From NCBI GenBank assembly GCA_021778415.1, contig JAJYCL010000017.1, positions 1-60,286 of the forward strand: 60,286 nt of DNA, in the 5' to 3' direction. Source of the DNA: a bacterium (lineage in GTDB: Bacteria > Vulcanimicrobiota > Vulcanimicrobiia > Vulcanimicrobiales > Vulcanimicrobiaceae). The first letter of the stretch is position 1, and each line of letters starts with the position of its first letter. The notes beneath the pieces were generated by a model. It made no database searches. It saw only the letters and a program-made list of their open reading frames with translations, and was not told the origin of the DNA. This document shows, in pieces, positions 1,207 through 44,329 of the stretch. A program made the position numbers and the translations under genes.

Positions 1207-2532
1207 ATGCGTGCATCGCGAATTCTCCGTGTCGGCGGCACAGAAGCCGACGGAAAAATATTAAGTACGGTCCTCAAGGGCGCGCTACCGTGCTCCGTTG
1301 AGTCCGTCTCCGCAGAATTGGCGACGGGAATCATCGGCAGCCGTAGCGCGGATCTCGTGATTCTCGATGTCACCGACGATGCCGCCGTTGCAACCGTCAT
1401 GAAAGCCGCCTCACCCAGCGATACCGCCCGCAATCGCGTTCCCGTTATTGTCAGCGGCCCGCATCGCTACGACGATCGCATAGCCCGCTTACTCCAATCA
1501 GGGGCGGAGGACTACCTCACCACGCCGTTTGACGGGACGAAACCGTCGCTGATTTCACGGCGCATCGAACTCTGCTTGTATCGCCGACACCTTCGCGATA
1601 CGACGATCCGCCTGCAATCGCTTCCCGGCGGAATGGATCAGAGTAGCATCGTCGAGCGCTACGCGCATGCAACCGATAAATTCGTTCCGCGTGAATTTCT
1701 CGAACTTTTGCGGCGCAATTCCTTAGCTGATGTTGCTCTTGGCGATAACGTCCAACGGGAAATGTCGATTCTGTTTTCCGACATTCGCCAATTTACGGCT
1801 CTTTCGGAACGGCTCACCCCAAAGCAGAATTTCGATTTCCTCAACTCATATCTCCGCGGCGTTACGCCGCTCGTTCGGAACAACGGCGGCTTCGTCGACA
1901 AGTATATCGGTGACGCTATTTTAGCGCTTTTCGCCCGCTCACCCGAAGATGCGCTGCGCACGGCCGTTGCCATGCAAGAATTTCTCGTCTCCTATAACGA
2001 GGGGCGCCGTCGCGCGGGGTACGTTCCCATTCGCATCGGCATCGGCGTGCATGCCGGCGACCTTATTCTCGGCACGATTGGCGAGGAAGAGCGTATGCAG
2101 ACGACCGTTATCTCCGATGCGGTGAACGTCGCTGCGCGCATCGAAGATCTCACGAAAAATTTCGGTGTTGGCATTCTTGTGAGTCACGCTGTCGTGACCG
2201 CATTGCCTAACGGGCATCCGTATCTTCTGCGCCATCTCGGGTCCGTGAAAGCAAAAGGGAAAAGCCGCAGCGTCGATATCTACGAATGCTTTAATACCGA
2301 TTCTCCCGAACTTCGCCAGCATAAATCCAATAATGCAGCCCTCTTTATCGAAGGGGTGATGGAATACCGCAAAGGCCTCTTCCTCACCGCCGGCCGCATC
2401 TTCTCGCGCGTTGCCGTGCAAGATCCCCGCGATACCGTCGCCGCGTTCTACCGAGATCGCTGCTCGCTGGCCATCGCTCACGGCGGCATTCGAGGAGATT
2501 CCGAGATTATAGAAACGGCCGACGCCCATTAG
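1207..2532 (+). CDS. Class III adenylate cyclase with N-terminal degenerate receiver domain
   Basis: 441 residues. Residues ~1-125 resemble a response-regulator receiver: a strand with LVILDVTDD (possible phosphoacceptor Asp), PVIVSG, and [10 protein letters not shown], where the usual KP lysine is Thr; the N-terminal acidic pair is absent ([10 protein letters not shown]), so phosphorylation is doubtful. Residues ~180-370 are a class III cyclase catalytic domain: the metal Asp in FSDIRQFT (~190), [12 protein letters not shown] with the adenine-selecting Lys and second metal Asp, and [15 protein letters not shown] with the substrate Thr and the transition-state Asn and Arg. All catalytic residues are present in one chain, so an active homodimer making cAMP is expected. 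A short C-terminal helical tail follows. It lies between the SRAP gene and an acyl-CoA dehydrogenase, 17 bases upstream of the latter, suggesting one transcript. Confidence 0.88.
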
Positions 2533-35101: not shown

Positions 35102-35781
35102 CGCAACGACTTTTTCGAGCGATGACCTAGCACGATTGCGTAGGCTGCATCCAGCCGATCGGCGACGCAATCATCATCAATCGTTTTCAGTAATTGCTCA
35201 ACAGCTCGTTGTGTGCGCTCTTGCGCGACCTTATCGCGAGGATCGATCGGGTCGCCGATAGCCAGGAGCATTTCCGGCTGTCGTCGTCCGAGAAAGAGAT
35301 AGCGCACGGCAAGGGGGATAATCGGAACGTCGGCGCGCCGCGCCGCATGCACAAATCCGGACGTAAAGGCCAACGGACTCTGCGGTGGGCGCAAGATACC
35401 GTCCGGCAATATCCAGACACCGGTACCGGAGGCCGCCTCTTCGGCCGCATACAGGATCGCATCCCGGGCCGTGCGCACGGAGGTTGCATCCACGGAGAAT
35501 GCACCGGCCATGCGAAAATACGGAAATCGACGTAATTCACGATCGCTCATCATGATGGCAAAGCGTCGCGTGGGATCCGAACGACGATGCGCAACAAGGG
35601 CCGCAAACCCATCCCACCACGCATGATGATTGGCAACGCCGATGTAGCCCCCGGACATTGGGAGCGTGATCCCGGTGCGCACGCGTAGTGCGGCAAAATT
35701 GCGCATGATCAGCCAATCGATCACGCGAGAAAATCCGGCAGAAAATCCGGCGTTACGACGAGCTCGTTGCCACGTACTCAT
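35098..35781 (-). CDS. PlsC-like acyltransferase in carotenoid locus
   Basis: 227 residues. The HX4D motif is seen in ANHHAWWDGFAAL, and WILPDGILRPP stands where plsC has FPEGTR. PIIPLAVRYLFLG follows. It differs from the plsC copy 2 kb away and has an AxxDG-type second motif common in acyltransferases acting on non-glycerol substrates. Placed between a CrtI-like enzyme and the CrtQ-like glycosyltransferase, it may esterify the sugar of a glycosyl carotenoid (the job of CrtO in staphylococci). That role is inferred. Confidence 0.75.
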   Translation of the reverse strand: MSTWQRARRNAGFSAGFSRVIDWLIMRNFAALRVRTGITLPMSGGYIGVANHHAWWDGFAALVAHRRSDPTRRFAIMMSDRELRRFPYFRMAGAFSVDATSVRTARDAILYAAEEAASGTGVWILPDGILRPPQSPLAFTSGFVHAARRADVPIIPLAVRYLFLGRRQPEMLLAIGDPIDPRDKVAQERTQRAVEQLLKTIDDDCVADRLDAAYAIVLGHRSKKSLR

Positions 35782-37211
35782 TGCAAAAGACGCTGCGCGG
35801 CGAGACGCCCCGAGATGAGCACCATCGGAACGCCGGAGCCCGGACGCGTACCGCTTCCGGCGAAGACGACATTCCGATAGTGTGGATGGGCAATGCTCGG
35901 TCGAAAGGCCGTCATTTGATCGAGTGTGTGATCCGGGCCGAATGCCGCGCCATGAAGCAAACCGAGTTCTTCGGCGAACTCCTTAGGTCCGCGGAATCGC
36001 TCGACTGCAATCGCATCGCGGAGCGGGCCAACCTCGCGCTCCAAACGTTGGAGGACGCGCTCCCGCAACGCGTGCGTATCGAGTTCCGGGCCATTCGAGC
36101 GATTCGGGACCGGAGTAAGCACAAGAAGCGCACTATGCCCGGCCGGCGCAACGGTTGCATCGCTCACACGTGGGTTGCAGACATACACCATCGGATCGTC
36201 GAGTTGCCGCCCGGCATCGAGAGCAGCATAAGCTTGCCACGGATTTTGCGGCAGAAACACCGTATGATGCGGTAAATCGATCGCGCGACGAACGCCGACA
36301 TACCATACCGCTGCCGAATGTCCGTACCGCATCCGACGTTCTCGCGGAGGCGCTTGCGCACCGAAAAGCTGACGCATCGCAGGTTCTCGATCGGCGGTCA
36401 CGACAACGGCGTCGGCATCATAGCGTTCGTCATCTGCAAAAATGCTAACGCCCTTGTTCGTCGCGTCGATGCGATCCACGCGAGCATTGAAGACGAAGCG
36501 AACGCCCAACTGTTTGCAGGCATCGACGCAGGCAGCAACGATTGCCCCGGTCCCGCCTGGCGCATACCACACCCCGCCGACCGCTTCACTCACCGGCAAT
36601 AGTGCGTAGAGCGCCGGTGCGCGTAATGGAGACGTCCCAAGGTAGAGCGATTGAAACGTCAGGGCTTCCACTGTGCGTGGATGCGTAAAATACCGCTGGG
36701 TAAATGCTCGGAGATTCCCGAAGATCCACGGTCGCATGCGCCCCGGCGTGATGATCGTACGAAGGAAGGACGCAACCGTATGATCTCGTTCGAGAATACG
36801 CGATTGCGCATCGGTGAACGCTTCGTGAACATCGGCGAGATAGCGTAATGCATGCGATGCACGCATCGGCCCTTCAAAGCGGGCAAACTCTGCTACGAGC
36901 AACGCGATGTCGGAATGAAGGGCAAACCGTTGCCCATCGGGCCAACGAATTTCGTATCCCGGCTCGATCCGCGAAAGGGCAAGCCGAGCAAAGCTCTCAT
37001 CGCCTAACGTCCGTTTGAGGACATCGGTCATCACGATCAGCGTCGGCCCAAGATCGAAGGTGTAGCCGTTTTCCGTTCTTCGTTGCGCTCGACCACCCGC
37101 AGAGCTCAATGCTTCGAGCACCGTAACCTGTACGCCGGCGCGGCCGAGTTCGAGCGCCGCCGAAAGCCCGGCAAATCCGGCTCCAACGACGATGGCGGAC
37201 TTCGGCTTCAT
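35778..37211 (-). CDS. CrtI-family FAD-dependent carotenoid desaturase/oxidase (first copy)
   Basis: 477 residues. FAD-binding Rossmann motif AIVVGAGFAGLSAALELG, then GGRAQRRTENGYTFDLGPT, and the C-terminal FAD motif VFAGSGTRPGSGVPMVLISG. Paralogous to the copy at 38.5-39.9 kb but clearly diverged. In staphyloxanthin-type pathways CrtN desaturates and CrtP oxidises the end group, and the two copies here could divide these roles; which does which cannot be told from motifs. Start ATG 37211 is only 18 bases from the divergent DUF2269 start; ATG 37226 is possible. Four-base overlap with the acyltransferase. Confidence 0.86.
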   Translation of the reverse strand: MKPKSAIVVGAGFAGLSAALELGRAGVQVTVLEALSSAGGRAQRRTENGYTFDLGPTLIVMTDVLKRTLGDESFARLALSRIEPGYEIRWPDGQRFALHSDIALLVAEFARFEGPMRASHALRYLADVHEAFTDAQSRILERDHTVASFLRTIITPGRMRPWIFGNLRAFTQRYFTHPRTVEALTFQSLYLGTSPLRAPALYALLPVSEAVGGVWYAPGGTGAIVAACVDACKQLGVRFVFNARVDRIDATNKGVSIFADDERYDADAVVVTADREPAMRQLFGAQAPPRERRMRYGHSAAVWYVGVRRAIDLPHHTVFLPQNPWQAYAALDAGRQLDDPMVYVCNPRVSDATVAPAGHSALLVLTPVPNRSNGPELDTHALRERVLQRLEREVGPLRDAIAVERFRGPKEFAEELGLLHGAAFGPDHTLDQMTAFRPSIAHPHYRNVVFAGSGTRPGSGVPMVLISGRLAAQRLLQ

Positions 37212-37229
37212 TGCTGCGAACCGCATCGC

Positions 37230-37676
37230 ATGGCGTGGCTCAAAATGCTCCACATTGCAACGGCAGTGCTCTGGCTCGGAAATTTTGTCATAACCGGAAT
37301 CTGGAGCATTCGTGCATTTACGAGCGGAAGCGCCGAACTGCGACGCTTCGCTGCTCGCGAAATTCTGTTTACCGATCTCCTCTTCACCTTCGGCGTTGGC
37401 GCAGCCGTGATCATGTCCGGGATCGGCTTGGCAGCGCTGGAAGGGTTCAATCCGTGGGCGGTCCTTTGGACGCGAATGGCCCTACTCACCACGATTGGAA
37501 GCGGCGTTGCATGGATGCTGCTCTTACTTCCTTTGGAGATCCGACTCACACGTCTGACAAAGAGCGAGCATGTGCTCGCGGCAACGCAGACCTTCATCTG
37601 GTGGAACATCATCGGCTGGCTCATTACCATCGCGCTTTTTTCCGTCATTTATTTGATGGTCGCGCGCCCGATGTAG
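37230..37676 (+). CDS. DUF2269-like four-helix membrane protein
   Basis: 148 residues with four membrane helices. The start MAWLKMLHIATAVLWLGNFV is typical of the DUF2269 family, and the end WNIIGWLITIALFSVIYLMV is the fourth helix. A His and Trp near the start recall heme- or redox-linked small membrane proteins, but no function is known. It is the only plus-strand gene within the carotenoid locus, and its last 28 bases overlap the end of crtB on the other strand. Confidence 0.75.
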   Translation: MAWLKMLHIATAVLWLGNFVITGIWSIRAFTSGSAELRRFAAREILFTDLLFTFGVGAAVIMSGIGLAALEGFNPWAVLWTRMALLTTIGSGVAWMLLLLPLEIRLTRLTKSEHVLAATQTFIWWNIIGWLITIALFSVIYLMVARPM

Positions 37677-38482
37677 GCTCGGCCGACACAACGGGCCGCA
37701 CGCAAAAGTTTCTCGGGCATCGGGACGAATACGCGCCCGCGCGTCGGATCGAATCCGCGGCGTTCGAGATGATCGAGAATTCCGCCGTAAATATCGGCAG
37801 TCATGAGCAGGGCAACACGGGAACCGTCGTTTGGAACGCGCGATGCTAACACGGCGGCCTCGCAATACAGTTCGCGAGCGCGCATCGCAAGCATCCGCAT
37901 GAGATCTTCCGTTCGCATACCGGGGAAGGCGGCTCGCGGCAAATAGTCGCGACCGAGCCGAGCATCCTCTTCCACATCGCGCAAAATATTGGTCAGTTGC
38001 ATCGCGATTCCCAAACGTTCTCCGCGATCTAACGAATCGCCATCGGCGACACCTAAAATCGGCATAGTCGTTCGGCCAACCGTCCCCGCAACGGCAGCAG
38101 AATATCGTTCAACGTCGGCCATGGTTGCGAAGCTGATCGGCACCAAATCGCCTTCACAGCCTTCAACGAGACGCAACGCGTCGCGAACATCAATCGGAAA
38201 ACGAGCGAATGCTCGGCGTACGGCAAGAAACCACGGAGCATCGCTCTCCACGTTCTCATCGTGAATGTGCAAGAGCGTCCGCTTGATCTCGGCAATTCCG
38301 GCGCTGCGTTGCGCAAACGGCAACCCGGGTTCGTCGGCAAGATCATCGGCGGTGCGGAAGAGTCCGTAGAGTGCTTCCACCGCTTCGCGTTTCTCACGCG
38401 GCAAAATGCGGGTCGAAAAATAAAACGACGTGGCATGGGCACGCATAATCCCTGCGCACCAATGTTGGCTCTGCTCGATCAT
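37649..38482 (-). CDS. crtB: Phytoene/squalene synthase family protein (carotenoid synthase)
   Basis: 277 residues. Both Asp-rich motifs are intact: FRTADDLADEP and LTNILRDVEEDA, with GRDYLP after the second. It condenses two prenyl diphosphates head to head. The neighbouring polyprenyl synthetase and CrtI-like enzymes make a C40 or C30 carotenoid precursor the expected product; phytoene and dehydrosqualene synthase cannot be told apart by motif. ATG overlaps the stop of the second desaturase by 4 bases. Its 3' end overlaps DUF2269. Confidence 0.9.
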   Translation of the reverse strand: MIEQSQHWCAGIMRAHATSFYFSTRILPREKREAVEALYGLFRTADDLADEPGLPFAQRSAGIAEIKRTLLHIHDENVESDAPWFLAVRRAFARFPIDVRDALRLVEGCEGDLVPISFATMADVERYSAAVAGTVGRTTMPILGVADGDSLDRGERLGIAMQLTNILRDVEEDARLGRDYLPRAAFPGMRTEDLMRMLAMRARELYCEAAVLASRVPNDGSRVALLMTADIYGGILDHLERRGFDPTRGRVFVPMPEKLLRAARCVGRAYIGRATIK

Positions 38483-39948
38483 GCGACCGGCATCTCCTCA
38501 AGAATGCGCTCAACGGTCTGCATCGCACTCATCGAAACCAGCGGCACCCCCGTTGCCGGGCGTGTCGAGGCACCGGCAAAATACAGATTCCGATAGCGGG
38601 CATGACGATTATCGGGACGCATCGGTCCGATCTGCAACAGATCGTGAGAGAGGCCGAAGGCAGCACCCAGATTGAGATTGAGTTCGTCGTGAAAATGCAC
38701 CGGCGTGCGATGGTTCATAAACCGAATGCGCTGACGCAATCCCGGCAAGCGACGCTCTTCGATCGTTCTGAGAATGCGATCGATCACTGCGGGAGTTTGC
38801 GCGGGCCAATCCATCGGCGAATCAAGCGACGGCGACGGGACGAGAACGTACAGCGCTTCACATCCCGGTGGCGCCATGGAAGCGTCGCTCGCACCGGGCG
38901 CACAAAGATAGATTGCCGGATCGTCGGGGATGCGTCCGCGTCGGAAGATATCGTCGCAGGTGCGCTGTAAATCCGAGGGCATTAAAAATTCATGATGGAG
39001 AAGATCGTCGTAGCGACGATCAAGGGCAAGATACAAGAGTAGCGCCGACGGAGTATGACGCATGCGCAACGAGCGGTCCTGCGTTTCGCCCAGCAACGTT
39101 CCATAGACATACGGAAGATCGGCGTTGGCGACGATGAGATCGGCTTCGACGCGACCGCTGCTCGTCTGCACTGCGACGACACGTTGCCCTTCGCGTTCGA
39201 TTCCCGTCACTTCGGTGGCATAGTGAATCGCTCCGCCGTTTTCAATCACGGCGCGATGCAAGGCACGAGCAAGAGCACCGATACCGCCGATCGGATAGTG
39301 TATGCCTTCGCCGAGCTCGGTGAAAAGCAGTAACCGATACAACAACGGCGCATCGAATGGCGACATTCCTAAGTACATCGATTGAAAAGAAAAAACGCCG
39401 GCCACGCGATCATCCCCGAACGCCTGCTTTGCGCGTGTTGCGAGCCTTGCCAGCGCTCCGGTCTTCCAAAGCGCATGCAATTTGTTCGGCGTAAAAAACG
39501 ACGCAAACGATGGAATACGTCGGCCGACAAACTCTCGCCGCGAAATTTCGTACGATTCCGCCGCTTCGGCGAAATAGCGCAGAAAACCGCGCGAGGAGCC
39601 CGGAGCGAGTGCATCCAGCGAGGCCATCGTTTCCGAGAGCAACGAGGTGATGACCAGCGATTTCCCATCAGGGTAATGCAACGTATAATTCGGACGCAAT
39701 CGGATCGTCGGCACTTCACGATCGAAGTCTCCACCCCAACTGGCAAAAGCCGTACGATAAACATCCAGCATAAATAACAGCGTCGGTCCGAGATCAAAAC
39801 GGAACCCCTCCCACTGCGCCTGGGCCGCTCGCCCGCCAGGTATCGCCTGCTTTTCAACGACGTGAACGTCGTATCCGCGATGGGCAAGCTGCGCCGCAGC
39901 CGTAAGCCCCGCAATTCCCGCTCCGATTACCACGACGCGCCGCTTCAT
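38479..39948 (-). CDS. CrtI-family phytoene desaturase-like protein (second copy)
   Basis: 489 residues. RVVVIGAGIAGLTAAAQL, GGRAAQAQWEGFRFDLGPT and YFAGASTRPATGVPLVSMSA are the N- and C-terminal FAD motifs; IHYPIGGIGALARAL is the usual substrate-side block. ATG 39948 is preceded by GAGG seven bases upstream, so this is the promoter-proximal gene of the crt transcript. The frame extends to 40041 without family similarity. Probably the main desaturase, as it is coupled to crtB. Confidence 0.9.
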   Translation of the reverse strand: MKRRVVVIGAGIAGLTAAAQLAHRGYDVHVVEKQAIPGGRAAQAQWEGFRFDLGPTLLFMLDVYRTAFASWGGDFDREVPTIRLRPNYTLHYPDGKSLVITSLLSETMASLDALAPGSSRGFLRYFAEAAESYEISRREFVGRRIPSFASFFTPNKLHALWKTGALARLATRAKQAFGDDRVAGVFSFQSMYLGMSPFDAPLLYRLLLFTELGEGIHYPIGGIGALARALHRAVIENGGAIHYATEVTGIEREGQRVVAVQTSSGRVEADLIVANADLPYVYGTLLGETQDRSLRMRHTPSALLLYLALDRRYDDLLHHEFLMPSDLQRTCDDIFRRGRIPDDPAIYLCAPGASDASMAPPGCEALYVLVPSPSLDSPMDWPAQTPAVIDRILRTIEERRLPGLRQRIRFMNHRTPVHFHDELNLNLGAAFGLSHDLLQIGPMRPDNRHARYRNLYFAGASTRPATGVPLVSMSAMQTVERILEEMPVA

Positions 39949-40024
39949 TCTCACGCCTCTAACCCGCCGTCCGCGAAAATGGGTGCGTCTCCAGGAGCTC
40001 CCACTCTTTCGTTCTAACTCCCGA

Positions 40025-43000
40025 ATGATGCGCGTGTCCAAAGCAGCGAAGCGATGGCTCTCTCATGCGGCTATGTTGCTCTTGCTTATCGTCGTACTGC
40101 CAACAATGGTTGGTGCAATGGCCTATTTGCCTATGCCGCATGGGCAAATCGGACTATCGGTGGCTTGGCAAACGGCTGGCGGAACGGATCAAGCCCTGGT
40201 GGTAACGGCCGTGCGGCGCGGCCTCCCCGCAGACCGTGCCGGCGTTCGCGTTGGCGATACGATCGTCGGATTTCCGACATTTTCGGATCGCATAATCGTC
40301 GTCGGCGAAGGGACACTCTATTTCATGGCGCCCGGGCAGCGCGTCACCTTCACACTACGGCATGGGAATAGCGTTACCCCGATAACCCTCCAAGCCGTCG
40401 GTCGCCCATTAACGCGTTCCATGTTCTTAGTCGAGCTTCGCTTAGCTCTGTATATCCTCGGAATTTGCATCGTCGGCGCATTGGTGTTTCTACGGCCGAG
40501 TACCATCACATGGGGCTTCGCACTTTTCGTCATTTTTGCGACGCAACCGACACTTGAAATCACCGAATTTATTGGATCGCTACAATGGCCGCCGGGATTT
40601 TTAGCGGCTTGGTTTCTTACCGATGCGGTCTACTACGTCGGTCTCCAGGGTCTGCTTGCGTTTGCGATCGCGTTTCCCGATAATGCTCCTCCCAAAAGTC
40701 ATCGCATCGTCGAACGCATCATGCTCGCCTTCAACGGGCTGCTCATTTTTGCGCTCATCGGCGGCTTCGTGAATGCATTTTTCGGAGTCCCGGCGTGGTC
40801 CATATGGAACCTCCCCGATTTCGCAACGGTCATCATCTACAACGTTCCGGCCATCGTTGCAGTGGCAATTCTTGCACAGAAACTGACGAATGCCAAAGGC
40901 GATGCGCGCATTCCCCTGCTCTGGGCCTTAGGCGGACCGCTCGTTAGCATGATCCTCTTTGTTGGCGATATGTCTTGGTCGTCGCTCCCCTTCTTGGGCA
41001 CATCGACACCAATTCTGCTCGGCATGCTCTCCTCGATTGCTCCATTTTCAGTGATGTACGCCATCCTTCGACATCGCGTTATCGACATCGGGTTTACCCT
41101 CAATACCACATTTGCCGAAGCGGTTTCGCAATCGAAGGGTGCCATGGAGCCGATCGCCGCACGACGGCAGATCGTTCGACGCACGGCGTTGCTCCTTAGC
41201 GCCGATCTTCCGCTACAAACGCTTTATTCCCAATTTGCTCTCCTTCTCGCATCGTTTGTCGACGCCTCGACCGTGCTGCTTGCCGTCAAATCGGCAAAAG
41301 GTTCGCACTTCGCATTCATTTTCGAAGATGGTGTGAGCGGAAAACCCGATGACACGACGGTCAGTCCGGATGGAAACACGGGACGTGTGCTGCGCGAAGG
41401 AAAGTCGGTGCTCTACCGCAACGCACAAGAATGGCCCTCACAACGCTTTCTGACCCTCGGCGGGCGGACCTCGCGTCCAACGCAATCGGCAATTTTCGTG
41501 CCGATTGTCTTCGGCGGGTCCATCGTCGGCGCTCTCAGCGTCCAATCGACGGCAATCAATGCATACAACGAAGAAGATCTCGAACTCATTGAAACATCGG
41601 CCGTGTACCTCGGTGCTCGAATCCACGACGAAGAACAACATGCCCAACGTGCAGAACTTCGAGCGCTTGCAACACACGACGCACTCACCGGATTAGGAAA
41701 CCGTCGAGCGTTCGATGATGCGATAGCCACTGAGTGCCTTCGCAAACGGGCGGCCGGAGAAACGTTCAACCTCCTCATGATCGATATCGATTATTTTAAG
41801 CCGTTTAATGATGCGTATGGCCACGTTGCCGGAGATGCATGCTTGCGGCAGATCGCCCGTGCATTGCAGTCGAGTCTTAGTCACGATGAAGGCCTCGTTG
41901 CCCGATTTGGCGGCGAAGAGTTTGCCGTCATCCTGAAAACCGGGGATCGTCAACACGCCATTGACATTGCCGAGTCGTTGTGCGCAGCGGTCCGTTCTCT
42001 TGCCATTCCGCATCAGGGCTCATCGCTCGGCTACGTTACGATCAGTATCGGTGTCGGTTCGGTGACCGCCGATCCTGGTTGCGATCCGCGCGTCCTTATT
42101 CTTAATGCCGACGCATGCTTGTATGAGGCGAAGGATGCCGGGCGTAATCGCGTCGGAGCCCGCGGCTATCGCGCTCAATCTCCACCGGCATTACCACGCT
42201 TTATCGAACGCAACAATTTGCCGGTGCCGCAAACCAGTTTTATCGGCCGACAAGCCGATATCGAAGAGATCGAATCGGCGATGAACGCCCATCAAATCGT
42301 CACGATTGTTGGCGCCGGCGGTGCCGGAAAAACGCGAACCGCTCTGGAAGTCGCGCGCCGTTCCGTCGGACGATTTCCGGACGGGGTCTGGTTTGTCGAT
42401 CTCTGCGCTGTTTCAAGCGGAGACTCCGTCGCACAAGCGATTGCCAATGCCGTACTCCCGCGCTCGGAACGCGTTGTCAGCAGCGAGCGACTTGCCGAAC
42501 TTCTCCGCGAAAACCGACTCTTGATCGTCCTCGATAACTGCGAGCACGTGATCGCTGCATGCGCGAATATTATCGCAGCCATTCTCGTGCGCGCGCCCGG
42601 TGTCGCCGTGCTGGCGACGAGTCGCGAAAATCTCGCGATTAGTGGAGAGCGAGTCTACCGCTTGCCGGCACTCTCCGAGCAAGACGGCATCTCGCTGTTG
42701 CTTGAACGCGCGCGTAGCGCAGGCATCGCGGAGATTCCACCGCAAAGCCGTGGCGTTGCCGAACGTATTGTCGGCGCGCTCGACGGCTTGCCGATGGCCA
42801 TCGAACTTGCCGCAGCCCGCCTCGTGATGCTCTCGCCCGACGAGCTTCTGCTCAGACTAACCGACCGACTCGAAGCCCTCCGCACGACAAGTCGTGAAAT
42901 TCCATTACGCCAGCAAACGCTTGGGGCGTTGCTTGATTGGAGCTACAATCTACTCCCCGAAAACGAGCGCGCGATTTTTACTCGGCTTGCCATTTTCGTT

Positions 43001-44329
43001 GGCGGGTGGACATTGGCGACGGCAACACTCGTATGCGGCGATCACGATTTTTCTCTTGAGGCGATCGAAGGAGCCCTCTCGGGCCTGGTCCGTAAGTCGC
43101 TCGTAGTCGTCGACGAACAGAGCGCAACCAGACGATTCTTCTTTCTCAGTACGACTGCCGATTATGCACGCGCATTACTCAAAGAAAGCGACGACTTTGA
43201 CGAAGTCGCATTGCGCCACGCCGAATGTTTTGCAGCAATGGCTCGTGAGCGAACCGGTCAAAAACGTTCGCTGCCGTACGTCGATTGGTTACGCTTACAA
43301 CGCGACGACCTCGAAAATTATCATGCTGCCTTGCGTCACGCACTGTCCGCCGGACGCTATCATCTCGCCGTCGATATCCTACAATCGCTGGGCGGGCTCA
43401 TGCTCTCATCGCAGATGTTTGAAGACATCTCGTCTCCGCTGCGCAAAGCGTTAAAAGAAACGACGTTACCGAACGCAACGCAAGGCTGGCTTCTCCTTGG
43501 ACTTGCAGAACTCGCGCAAGCAAAAAACCCCGGCGATGCGCTTGAAGCCTCGCGTCGCGCCTATGATCTTTTTACGCAATGTCATGATGACAAGAGTGCG
43601 GCCTATGCGCTGTGGACACTTGCAAGTGCGCAATTGCGCGTCGACGGCGCAATCGACAATGCCCTGCATGGTCCGCTTCAATCGTGCCTCTTGACCATCC
43701 GGCAATATGGTGACCGCCATCTCAGCGTCGGACTTCTCCGACACATCGCCTACATTCGCTCCGAAGCCGGTCGCTTCTCGGAGGCACGCGCCGCGCTTCG
43801 GGAGGCGGCCGAAATCATCGATCGCACCGATGTAGGCGTCCTCGCGGCACTGCTTGGCAGTAGCGCACGCGAAGAATTTCGTTCCGGGAATTTTCGAGAA
43901 GCGGTGACGCTCTGGCAACGTGCATCGGCGCTCGTTGAAGAGAGCCAGTCCGCGTATGCCTCGCTCTGTCGGCTCAATTCGGGCCTCGGAGAGCTGATGC
44001 TCGGAAACACCGAGGGTGCACGCATCTTCTTGCGTGAAGGATTTGCAGATCTCGAAAAAGCCGGACATTCCTTTGGCGTCGCCCTAGCGTACGACTACTT
44101 CGCACTTCTTGCGCACAAACGCCATGACGCCGTTCGCGCGGCGAAACTCGCCGGCTTTGCGGCGCGCTGTTTTGAAGCCGGTCCTCGTCGCGATTCCCTC
44201 GGCCAAGCGATGTTCGACGAGCTCATCGATCAACTCCGCAAAGAACTCGGCCCCGATGCATTCGAGCGCGAATGGTCCCATGGTCGGATGCTTGAGCCAA
44301 GCGAAGCGAGCGCGCTCGCTGCCCATTAG
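40025..44329 (+). CDS. Multidomain membrane signalling protein: PDZ, 7TM, GAF, GGDEF, STAND ATPase, TPR
   Basis: 1434 residues from ATG 40025; a GTG at 39983 would add 14, and no clear ribosome site decides. Order: first membrane helix (AAMLLLLIVVLP), PDZ-like domain (~45-125, RAGVRVGDTIVGF), about seven helices (~130-355), GAF domain (~385-540), diguanylate cyclase domain with DALTGLGNRRAFDDA (~550) and ARFGGEEFAVIL (~628), then a STAND/AfsR-type ATPase (Walker A VGAGGAGKTRTALE, ~762; Walker B LLIVLDNCEHV, ~836) and a helical TPR-like end (~1060-1425). No RxxD product-inhibition site precedes GGEEF. All catalytic motifs for c-di-GMP synthesis and ATP binding look intact. Target unknown. The stop is shared (TTAG) with the opposite gene. 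Confidence 0.82.
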   Translation: MMRVSKAAKRWLSHAAMLLLLIVVLPTMVGAMAYLPMPHGQIGLSVAWQTAGGTDQALVVTAVRRGLPADRAGVRVGDTIVGFPTFSDRIIVVGEGTLYFMAPGQRVTFTLRHGNSVTPITLQAVGRPLTRSMFLVELRLALYILGICIVGALVFLRPSTITWGFALFVIFATQPTLEITEFIGSLQWPPGFLAAWFLTDAVYYVGLQGLLAFAIAFPDNAPPKSHRIVERIMLAFNGLLIFALIGGFVNAFFGVPAWSIWNLPDFATVIIYNVPAIVAVAILAQKLTNAKGDARIPLLWALGGPLVSMILFVGDMSWSSLPFLGTSTPILLGMLSSIAPFSVMYAILRHRVIDIGFTLNTTFAEAVSQSKGAMEPIAARRQIVRRTALLLSADLPLQTLYSQFALLLASFVDASTVLLAVKSAKGSHFAFIFEDGVSGKPDDTTVSPDGNTGRVLREGKSVLYRNAQEWPSQRFLTLGGRTSRPTQSAIFVPIVFGGSIVGALSVQSTAINAYNEEDLELIETSAVYLGARIHDEEQHAQRAELRALATHDALTGLGNRRAFDDAIATECLRKRAAGETFNLLMIDIDYFKPFNDAYGHVAGDACLRQIARALQSSLSHDEGLVARFGGEEFAVILKTGDRQHAIDIAESLCAAVRSLAIPHQGSSLGYVTISIGVGSVTADPGCDPRVLILNADACLYEAKDAGRNRVGARGYRAQSPPALPRFIERNNLPVPQTSFIGRQADIEEIESAMNAHQIVTIVGAGGAGKTRTALEVARRSVGRFPDGVWFVDLCAVSSGDSVAQAIANAVLPRSERVVSSERLAELLRENRLLIVLDNCEHVIAACANIIAAILVRAPGVAVLATSRENLAISGERVYRLPALSEQDGISLLLERARSAGIAEIPPQSRGVAERIVGALDGLPMAIELAAARLVMLSPDELLLRLTDRLEALRTTSREIPLRQQTLGALLDWSYNLLPENERAIFTRLAIFVGGWTLATATLVCGDHDFSLEAIEGALSGLVRKSLVVVDEQSATRRFFFLSTTADYARALLKESDDFDEVALRHAECFAAMARERTGQKRSLPYVDWLRLQRDDLENYHAALRHALSAGRYHLAVDILQSLGGLMLSSQMFEDISSPLRKALKETTLPNATQGWLLLGLAELAQAKNPGDALEASRRAYDLFTQCHDDKSAAYALWTLASAQLRVDGAIDNALHGPLQSCLLTIRQYGDRHLSVGLLRHIAYIRSEAGRFSEARAALREAAEIIDRTDVGVLAALLGSSAREEFRSGNFREAVTLWQRASALVEESQSAYASLCRLNSGLGELMLGNTEGARIFLREGFADLEKAGHSFGVALAYDYFALLAHKRHDAVRAAKLAGFAARCFEAGPRRDSLGQAMFDELIDQLRKELGPDAFEREWSHGRMLEPSEASALAAH

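Follow-up and report, generated by a model that had tools for sequence, protein, structure and literature searches.

The stretch of DNA analysed here, called the window below, comprises positions 1 to 60,286 (60,286 nucleotides) of contig JAJYCL010000017.1 (assembly GCA_021778415.1), from a bacterium of the family Vulcanimicrobiaceae, phylum Vulcanimicrobiota. On its forward strand, positions 40025-44329 form an open reading frame of 1434 codons without interruption. The earlier note on this DNA, made from the letters alone, had described the product as one chain joining PDZ, seven-transmembrane (7TM), GAF, GGDEF, STAND and TPR parts, and this description was borne out by Pfam, hydropathy, fold and profile matches. 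The survey of the architecture that the note had called for, in which a GGDEF+STAND profile was searched over 149 genomes of the same phylum, showed that the gene is no one-off: 49 fused GGDEF-STAND genes lie in 34 of these genomes. Motifs were compared across 45 fusion proteins for GGDEF and 32 aligned members for STAND. The features are listed by position, with the evidence in brackets; TM1 is the first transmembrane helix, c-di-GMP is cyclic di-GMP, and the STAND nucleotide-binding oligomerisation domain (NOD) consists of a nucleotide-binding domain (NBD), a helical domain (HD) and a winged-helix domain (WHD).

40025 to 44329, + strand: whole gene, 1434 residues, TM1-PDZ-7TM-GAF-predicted coiled coil-GGDEF-STAND-TPR (open frame, Pfam, full-length homologue L011)
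40067 to 40123, + strand: TM1, residues 15-33 (hydropathy and positive-inside pattern; helix 6-34 in the model)
40136 to 40399, + strand: extracytoplasmic PDZ domain, residues 38-125 (Pfam PDZ below cut-off; DegS/HtrA PDZ matches of the model)
40436 to 41068, + strand: 7TM block, residues 138-348, ending in YAILRHRVIDIG (hydropathy; model pLDDT 86.8, pTM 0.82)
41213 to 41620, + strand: GAF domain, residues 397-532 (Pfam PF01590, 1.7e-8; PF13185 (GAF_2), 5.6e-10)
41570 to 41674, + strand: 35-residue helix connecting GAF and GGDEF, residues 516-550 (helix 148-182 of the 369-1434 model)
41669 to 42151, + strand: GGDEF diguanylate cyclase domain, residues 549-709 (Pfam PF00990, 5e-46; fold search)
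41882 to 41893, + strand: position of the c-di-GMP inhibitory site, HDEG instead of RxxD, His620 to Gly623 (motif alignment)
41909 to 41923, + strand: GGEEF active site, residues 629-633 (motif alignment)
42227 to 43204, + strand: STAND NOD, about residues 735-1060, with NBD, HD and WHD (NB-ARC 5e-10 over 753-935; AfsR 9e-30; PH0952 fold)
42311 to 42334, + strand: Walker A, GAGGAGKT, residues 763-770 (Lys invariant in 32/32)
42521 to 42538, + strand: Walker B, LIVLDN, residues 833-838, with LIVLD at 833-837 (Asp invariant in 32/32)
42785 to 42793, + strand: GxP motif, GLP, residues 921-923 (motif alignment)
43403 to 44299, + strand: arm and TPR sensor, about residues 1127-1425 (Pfam TPR; all-helical solenoid in the model; PH0952 match)

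A gene in a separate genome of another genus (L011) has the same full architecture, with about 40% identity over 1430 residues, and the GC content along the frame is even (0.55-0.59). The gene is therefore no chimera, and an assembly or frame artefact, one of the two refutations foreseen in the earlier note, is ruled out. No shared gene neighbourhood or synteny was found between the window gene and L011. An in-frame GTG at 39983 is a possible alternative start, with which the N-terminus would be 14 residues longer; the sequence near 40025 shows no Shine-Dalgarno motif. GGDEF, NB-ARC, GAF, GAF_2 and AAA_22 score above the Pfam cut-offs; TPR and PDZ fall under the curated cut-offs, yet at E values of 1e-6 to 2e-4. 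Two AlphaFold2 models were built, one of residues 1-385 from 25 relatives (pLDDT 86.8, pTM 0.82) and one of residues 369-1434 from 30 relatives (pLDDT 89.3, pTM 0.65). In the PDB, the latter matched first the STAND-TPR protein PH0952 (6mfv; E 8.5e-14, 712 columns), then phytochrome-type and WspR-type diguanylate cyclases, and then Apaf-1. These fold matches and the profile matches rule out chance domain calls. A scan of the genome's contigs with the protein gave matches mostly to the GGDEF part.

The cyclase part carries the GG[DE]EF active site, intact as GGEEF just as the earlier note had it, together with the metal-binding and guanine-binding residues of a GGDEF cyclase. Metal-binding Asp587 and guanine-reading Asn595 and Asp604 are kept, and all three are invariant in the 45 fusion proteins; we take Asn595 and Asp604 to be the counterparts of the guanine readers N335 and D344 of PleD. 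In the fold search the domain is 42-45% identical to the GGDEF domain of WspR, and its fold resembles that of active cyclases. With its catalytic motifs intact, the protein is predicted from sequence to synthesise c-di-GMP. The RxxD inhibitory site, five residues before GGDEF, is absent, with HDEG in its place. The note was right about this absence in the window protein, but it is not a family trait, as RxxD is kept in 42 of the 45 fusions, the exceptions being the window protein, L011 (half kept) and L132. Upstream, the 35-residue helix between GAF and GGDEF is, judging from the model, likely a dimer coiled coil.

The STAND part shows Walker A of the form GxxGxGK[TS], Walker B of the form hhhhD, an NBD-HD-WHD core with GxP, and a C-terminal TPR region; the good Walker motifs reported earlier are thus present, as is sensor Arg867. 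Among solved NODs, that of AfsR comes closest in the profile comparison (8k60, E 9e-30, positions 6-334). In the WHD, the histidine that contacts ADP is replaced by Leu1041, and no histidine stands there in any of the 32 aligned members, class III cyclase-STANDs included, so that Leu1041 is a family trait and not decay of this copy. To our knowledge the WHD histidine is not universal among STANDs, and it was not used as a defining feature. It is present in Apaf-1, AfsR and PH0952 (H382; PMC6468293).

The N-terminal half has all the features of a PDZ-7TM receptor: TM1, a PDZ domain outside the membrane, seven further transmembrane helices, and a GAF domain behind the last of them. Hydropathy gave eight helices in a 1+7 pattern, and positive charge clusters in the loops predicted to lie inside, the short outside loops having none, which together place the PDZ domain outside. 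In the 1-385 model, the best PDB matches of the PDZ domain are those of DegS/HtrA (best E 0.0018, probability 1.00; none at E 0.001). The membrane PDZ/7TM sensor of the earlier note is thus present with clean topology, but it is no speciality of this chain: PDZ-7TM-GAF proteins of about 580 residues without a known output domain are common receptors in many genomes of the family, and PDZ-7TM also turns up in fusions with OmpR/BTAD regulators (L242-L244) and with a class III cyclase (L250). Within this lineage, PDZ-7TM is a widespread receptor unit that can be exchanged between proteins. Examples of the ~580-residue proteins with no recognisable output domain are found at L121 (2916-4637) and at loci L214-L241. 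L242, L243 and L244 encode PDZ-7TM proteins of about 1300 residues with a C-terminal OmpR-type winged helix-turn-helix plus BTAD, and are apparent membrane-bound SARP-like regulators.

The GGDEF-STAND fusions have a narrow distribution. Within the phylum, 33 of 99 genomes in the window's family (f1) and 1 of 14 in family f3 carry one, and none was seen elsewhere in the phylum. Most fusions are about 1050 residues long, with an N-terminal GAF or similar stretch, GGDEF, STAND and TPR; only the window protein and L011, among those studied, have PDZ-7TM in front. GGEEF is intact in 42 of 45, the exceptions being L011 (GEEEF, with the DxLTGLxNR motif also broken), L127 (GGKEF) and L132 (degenerate). 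The second foreseen refutation, that GGDEF or STAND be degenerate in all relatives, is thereby excluded, the motifs being intact in most. In two genomes of one genus (L253, 126-4791; L254, 1-4187) the GGDEF-STAND-TPR gene is immediately preceded, with almost no gap, by a second GGDEF gene, and L124 (1190-7740) holds a tandem pair of 1073-residue GGDEF-STAND genes.

Outside the phylum, 26 genomes of named organisms gave no match spanning GGDEF and STAND, and none appeared, among the strong matches of the few best candidates per genome, in samples of 297, 398 and 292 genomes centred on one genome each of Acidobacteriota, Dyella and Trichormus. These samples total about 1,010 genomes, Actinomycetota and Chloroflexota chromosomes lying outside them. 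Among 72,556 plasmid records no single place covered 80% of the query. The best rows with both domains came from two Deinococcus plasmids, of which one has separate adjacent genes and the other has no annotated GGDEF gene joined to a STAND gene. Among the genomes sampled, the GGDEF-STAND-TPR core makes up a family of some size that has so far turned up in no lineage but the window's, and the pairing is as unusual as had been supposed. All the domains are known. The open-access papers searched contained no description of a GGDEF domain joined to a STAND NOD, a mention in the founding STAND survey (Leipe 2004) being possible.

The STAND-TPR half occurs with other effectors in the same genomes: most of the ~920-residue relatives examined carry class III cyclases, and L004 carries a BTAD effector. 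Since both halves also occur with other partners, the window protein is made of two cassettes, one the receptor and the other GGDEF-STAND-TPR. In the NOD tree, members with GGDEF are interspersed with members that have a class III cyclase, and the starred branches require the GGDEF label to have changed at least twice; the tree gives no direction for the effector change because the cyclase members were chosen for their similarity to the protein studied here. The GGDEF tree does not resolve and the NOD tree mixes both types, which leaves room for one fusion origin or several. The earlier note had taken the protein for the window's best candidate for an undescribed signalling system; with 49 fusions beside many class III cyclase-STAND-TPR proteins, it reads as an effector change within a known STAND design and not a wholly new system. 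The genome from which the window comes also encodes L120 (1941-5786; contig C61:17940-21785), a 1282-residue protein with the order STAND(AAA_16)-TPR-LuxR HTH-GAF-GGDEF, that is, a MalT-like regulator with a C-terminal diguanylate cyclase. Its GAF-GGDEF is 42% identical to that of the window protein, its domain order is different, and at the threshold applied it had no other full-length match in the phylum.

The window gene stands alone, with crtI divergent and a DUF308-like gene convergent. Its neighbours are carotenoid, exonuclease, RadA, FTCD and M16 genes, which are not defence genes, and PADLOC models gave no match to the protein. The divergent carotenoid-type cluster (35778-40041, - strand) contains two desaturase-like amine oxidase family proteins and a phytoene/squalene synthase. 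Elsewhere in the window, 1207-2532 (+ strand) encodes a 441-residue protein with, by eye, a receiver-like N-terminus and a class III cyclase domain. The genome encodes eight PilZ domains above cut-off, possible c-di-GMP receptors.

From the domains, motifs, topology, conservation and distribution, which are directly established, we propose that the window protein is a membrane-anchored STAND signalling protein with a diguanylate cyclase effector and ATP-switched c-di-GMP output, a reading to which we give about an even chance. The likeliest design is the one seen in class III cyclase-STAND-TPR proteins, of which the same genomes hold many. For a diguanylate cyclase to work, two GGDEF domains have to face each other, and often a coiled coil brings them into this position. 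One case of such a coiled-coil/GGDEF arrangement is treated in PMC8041772. Bacterial STANDs with TPR sensors are closed with ADP at rest, and an inducer brings ATP uptake and multimerisation (PMC4381067, including MalT; PMC6468293); AfsR is activated by ATP binding rather than hydrolysis (PMC10936776), and STAND effectors are found at either protein end (PMC6468293). It is plausible that c-di-GMP output would depend on ATP in the window protein. At rest the NOD would hold ADP, the arm and TPR region would keep it closed, and the GGDEF domains would be apart. A cytosolic inducer on the TPR region would open the NOD, ATP would replace ADP, and the protein would multimerise; because GGDEF directly precedes the NOD, this would set the GGDEF domains side by side, paired via the GAF-helix-GGDEF stalk, to make c-di-GMP that PilZ proteins may read. 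The PDZ-7TM part would anchor the protein in the membrane and supply a second input, adding or vetoing; the PDZ domain probably binds an extracytoplasmic peptide or protein C-terminus, with the signal passing via 7TM to GAF. With TPR and PDZ-7TM-GAF as two inputs, two signals might be detected together, and without RxxD this copy would escape product inhibition. The inducer, the assembly and pairing, the two-signal logic, the direction of control and the level of output are what we infer.

The NOD-arm-TPR order, as in PH0952 and AfsR, speaks for an ATP-switched cyclase, as does the pairing of this STAND-TPR module with class III cyclases in related proteins. The kept cyclase and ATPase residues, the mixing of GGDEF and cyclase types in the NOD tree, the predicted GAF-helix-GGDEF stalk, the eight PilZ domains and the clean 1+7 topology with PDZ outside count in its favour as well. 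Several points weigh against it. The coupling of STAND state to GGDEF activity is something that we infer in the relatives too, and many-fold STAND rings must be reconciled with two-fold GGDEF dimers. Nucleotide control may differ, since Leu1041 takes the place of the ADP-contacting histidine, missing in 32/32; the cyclase of the sole full-length homologue, L011, may be weak or dead, given its GEEEF and broken DxLTGLxNR; and a solitary gene gives no operon hint.

The strongest rival, which we hold to be unlikely, is that the cyclase works under the PDZ-7TM-GAF receptor alone through the coiled coil, while STAND-TPR is a static scaffold or docking platform placing c-di-GMP near a partner. Such a view draws on the GAF-helix-GGDEF arrangement, standard for receptor-driven cyclases, on the missing WHD histidine, and on the frequency with which TPR domains are just partner binders; it fits poorly with Walker A/B, sensor 1 and GxP, unneeded in a pure scaffold but conserved across very divergent members, and with the many family members, the majority, that lack PDZ-7TM and still keep GGDEF and STAND joined. 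The prevalence of RxxD, a c-di-GMP binding site, among the fusions and the degenerate look of some GGDEF domains (L011, L127, L132) would suit another arrangement, in which GGDEF is a sensor or second effector and its GTP or c-di-GMP state gates a STAND multimerisation that recruits another protein. For the window copy this is less likely, as it lacks RxxD and retains an intact active site, and Pfam found no further effector domain in the 1434 residues; overall we judge it improbable. Nucleotide second messengers serve in defence. An NLR-like anti-phage sensor of Avs type that raises a nucleotide alarm upon infection is nevertheless highly improbable: STAND phage sensors such as Avs5 exist (PMC12931631), but PADLOC and the neighbouring genes give no defence signal, the nearest solved NOD belongs to a transcription regulator, and a membrane PDZ receptor points to extracytoplasmic signals.

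Returning to the ATP-switched cyclase, we extend it to the lineage with somewhat less than even confidence: its STAND (NLR-like) hubs would switch c-di-GMP synthesis, an ATP-driven, TPR-sensing platform pairing the GGDEF domains, and the window copy would do so at the membrane, gated by PDZ-7TM and with product inhibition removed. If this is true, STAND assembly and c-di-GMP signalling are joined in one chain, and c-di-GMP would stand beside transcription, cell death and class III cyclases among the known outputs of STANDs. With some 50 members, mostly with an intact diguanylate cyclase, the family would offer a simple enzymatic readout of STAND activation, as c-di-GMP per minute, and related STAND-TPR modules with two different cyclases would constitute a natural experiment with one switch and unrelated catalytic dimers.

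Known systems resemble the window protein in part. In the vWA-MoxR/VMAP NTP (nucleoside triphosphate)-dependent systems, GGDEF occasionally replaces the cNMP (cyclic nucleotide monophosphate) cyclase (PMC7159879), but these are MoxR/VMAP proteins and not AfsR-like STANDs. The histidine kinase ComP likewise has an extracytoplasmic PDZ domain between TM1 and TM2 of a polytopic sensor (PMC9620489), whereas its output is a histidine kinase and it has ten transmembrane helices. Cyclases of the WspR/PleD type share the GGDEF fold and active site; they have REC (receiver) inputs, an I-site, which the window copy is without, and no STAND. PH0952, the first fold match, and MalT are STANDs with a TPR sensor but have DNA-binding effectors, no cyclase and no membrane part. 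AfsR (SARP-STAND-TPR; 8k60, 8jke) is closer, with an N-terminal effector, a C-terminal TPR region and the closest NOD by sequence, although its effector is the DNA-binding SARP and its WHD histidine is kept (FHD, versus Leu-Ser in the window protein). The class III cyclase-STAND-TPR proteins (PF00211 + NB-ARC/AAA + TPR) have a class III cyclase instead of GAF-GGDEF, and those examined have no PDZ-7TM, but they share with the window protein an N-terminal cyclase followed by a STAND NOD, 34-43% identical, and TPR.

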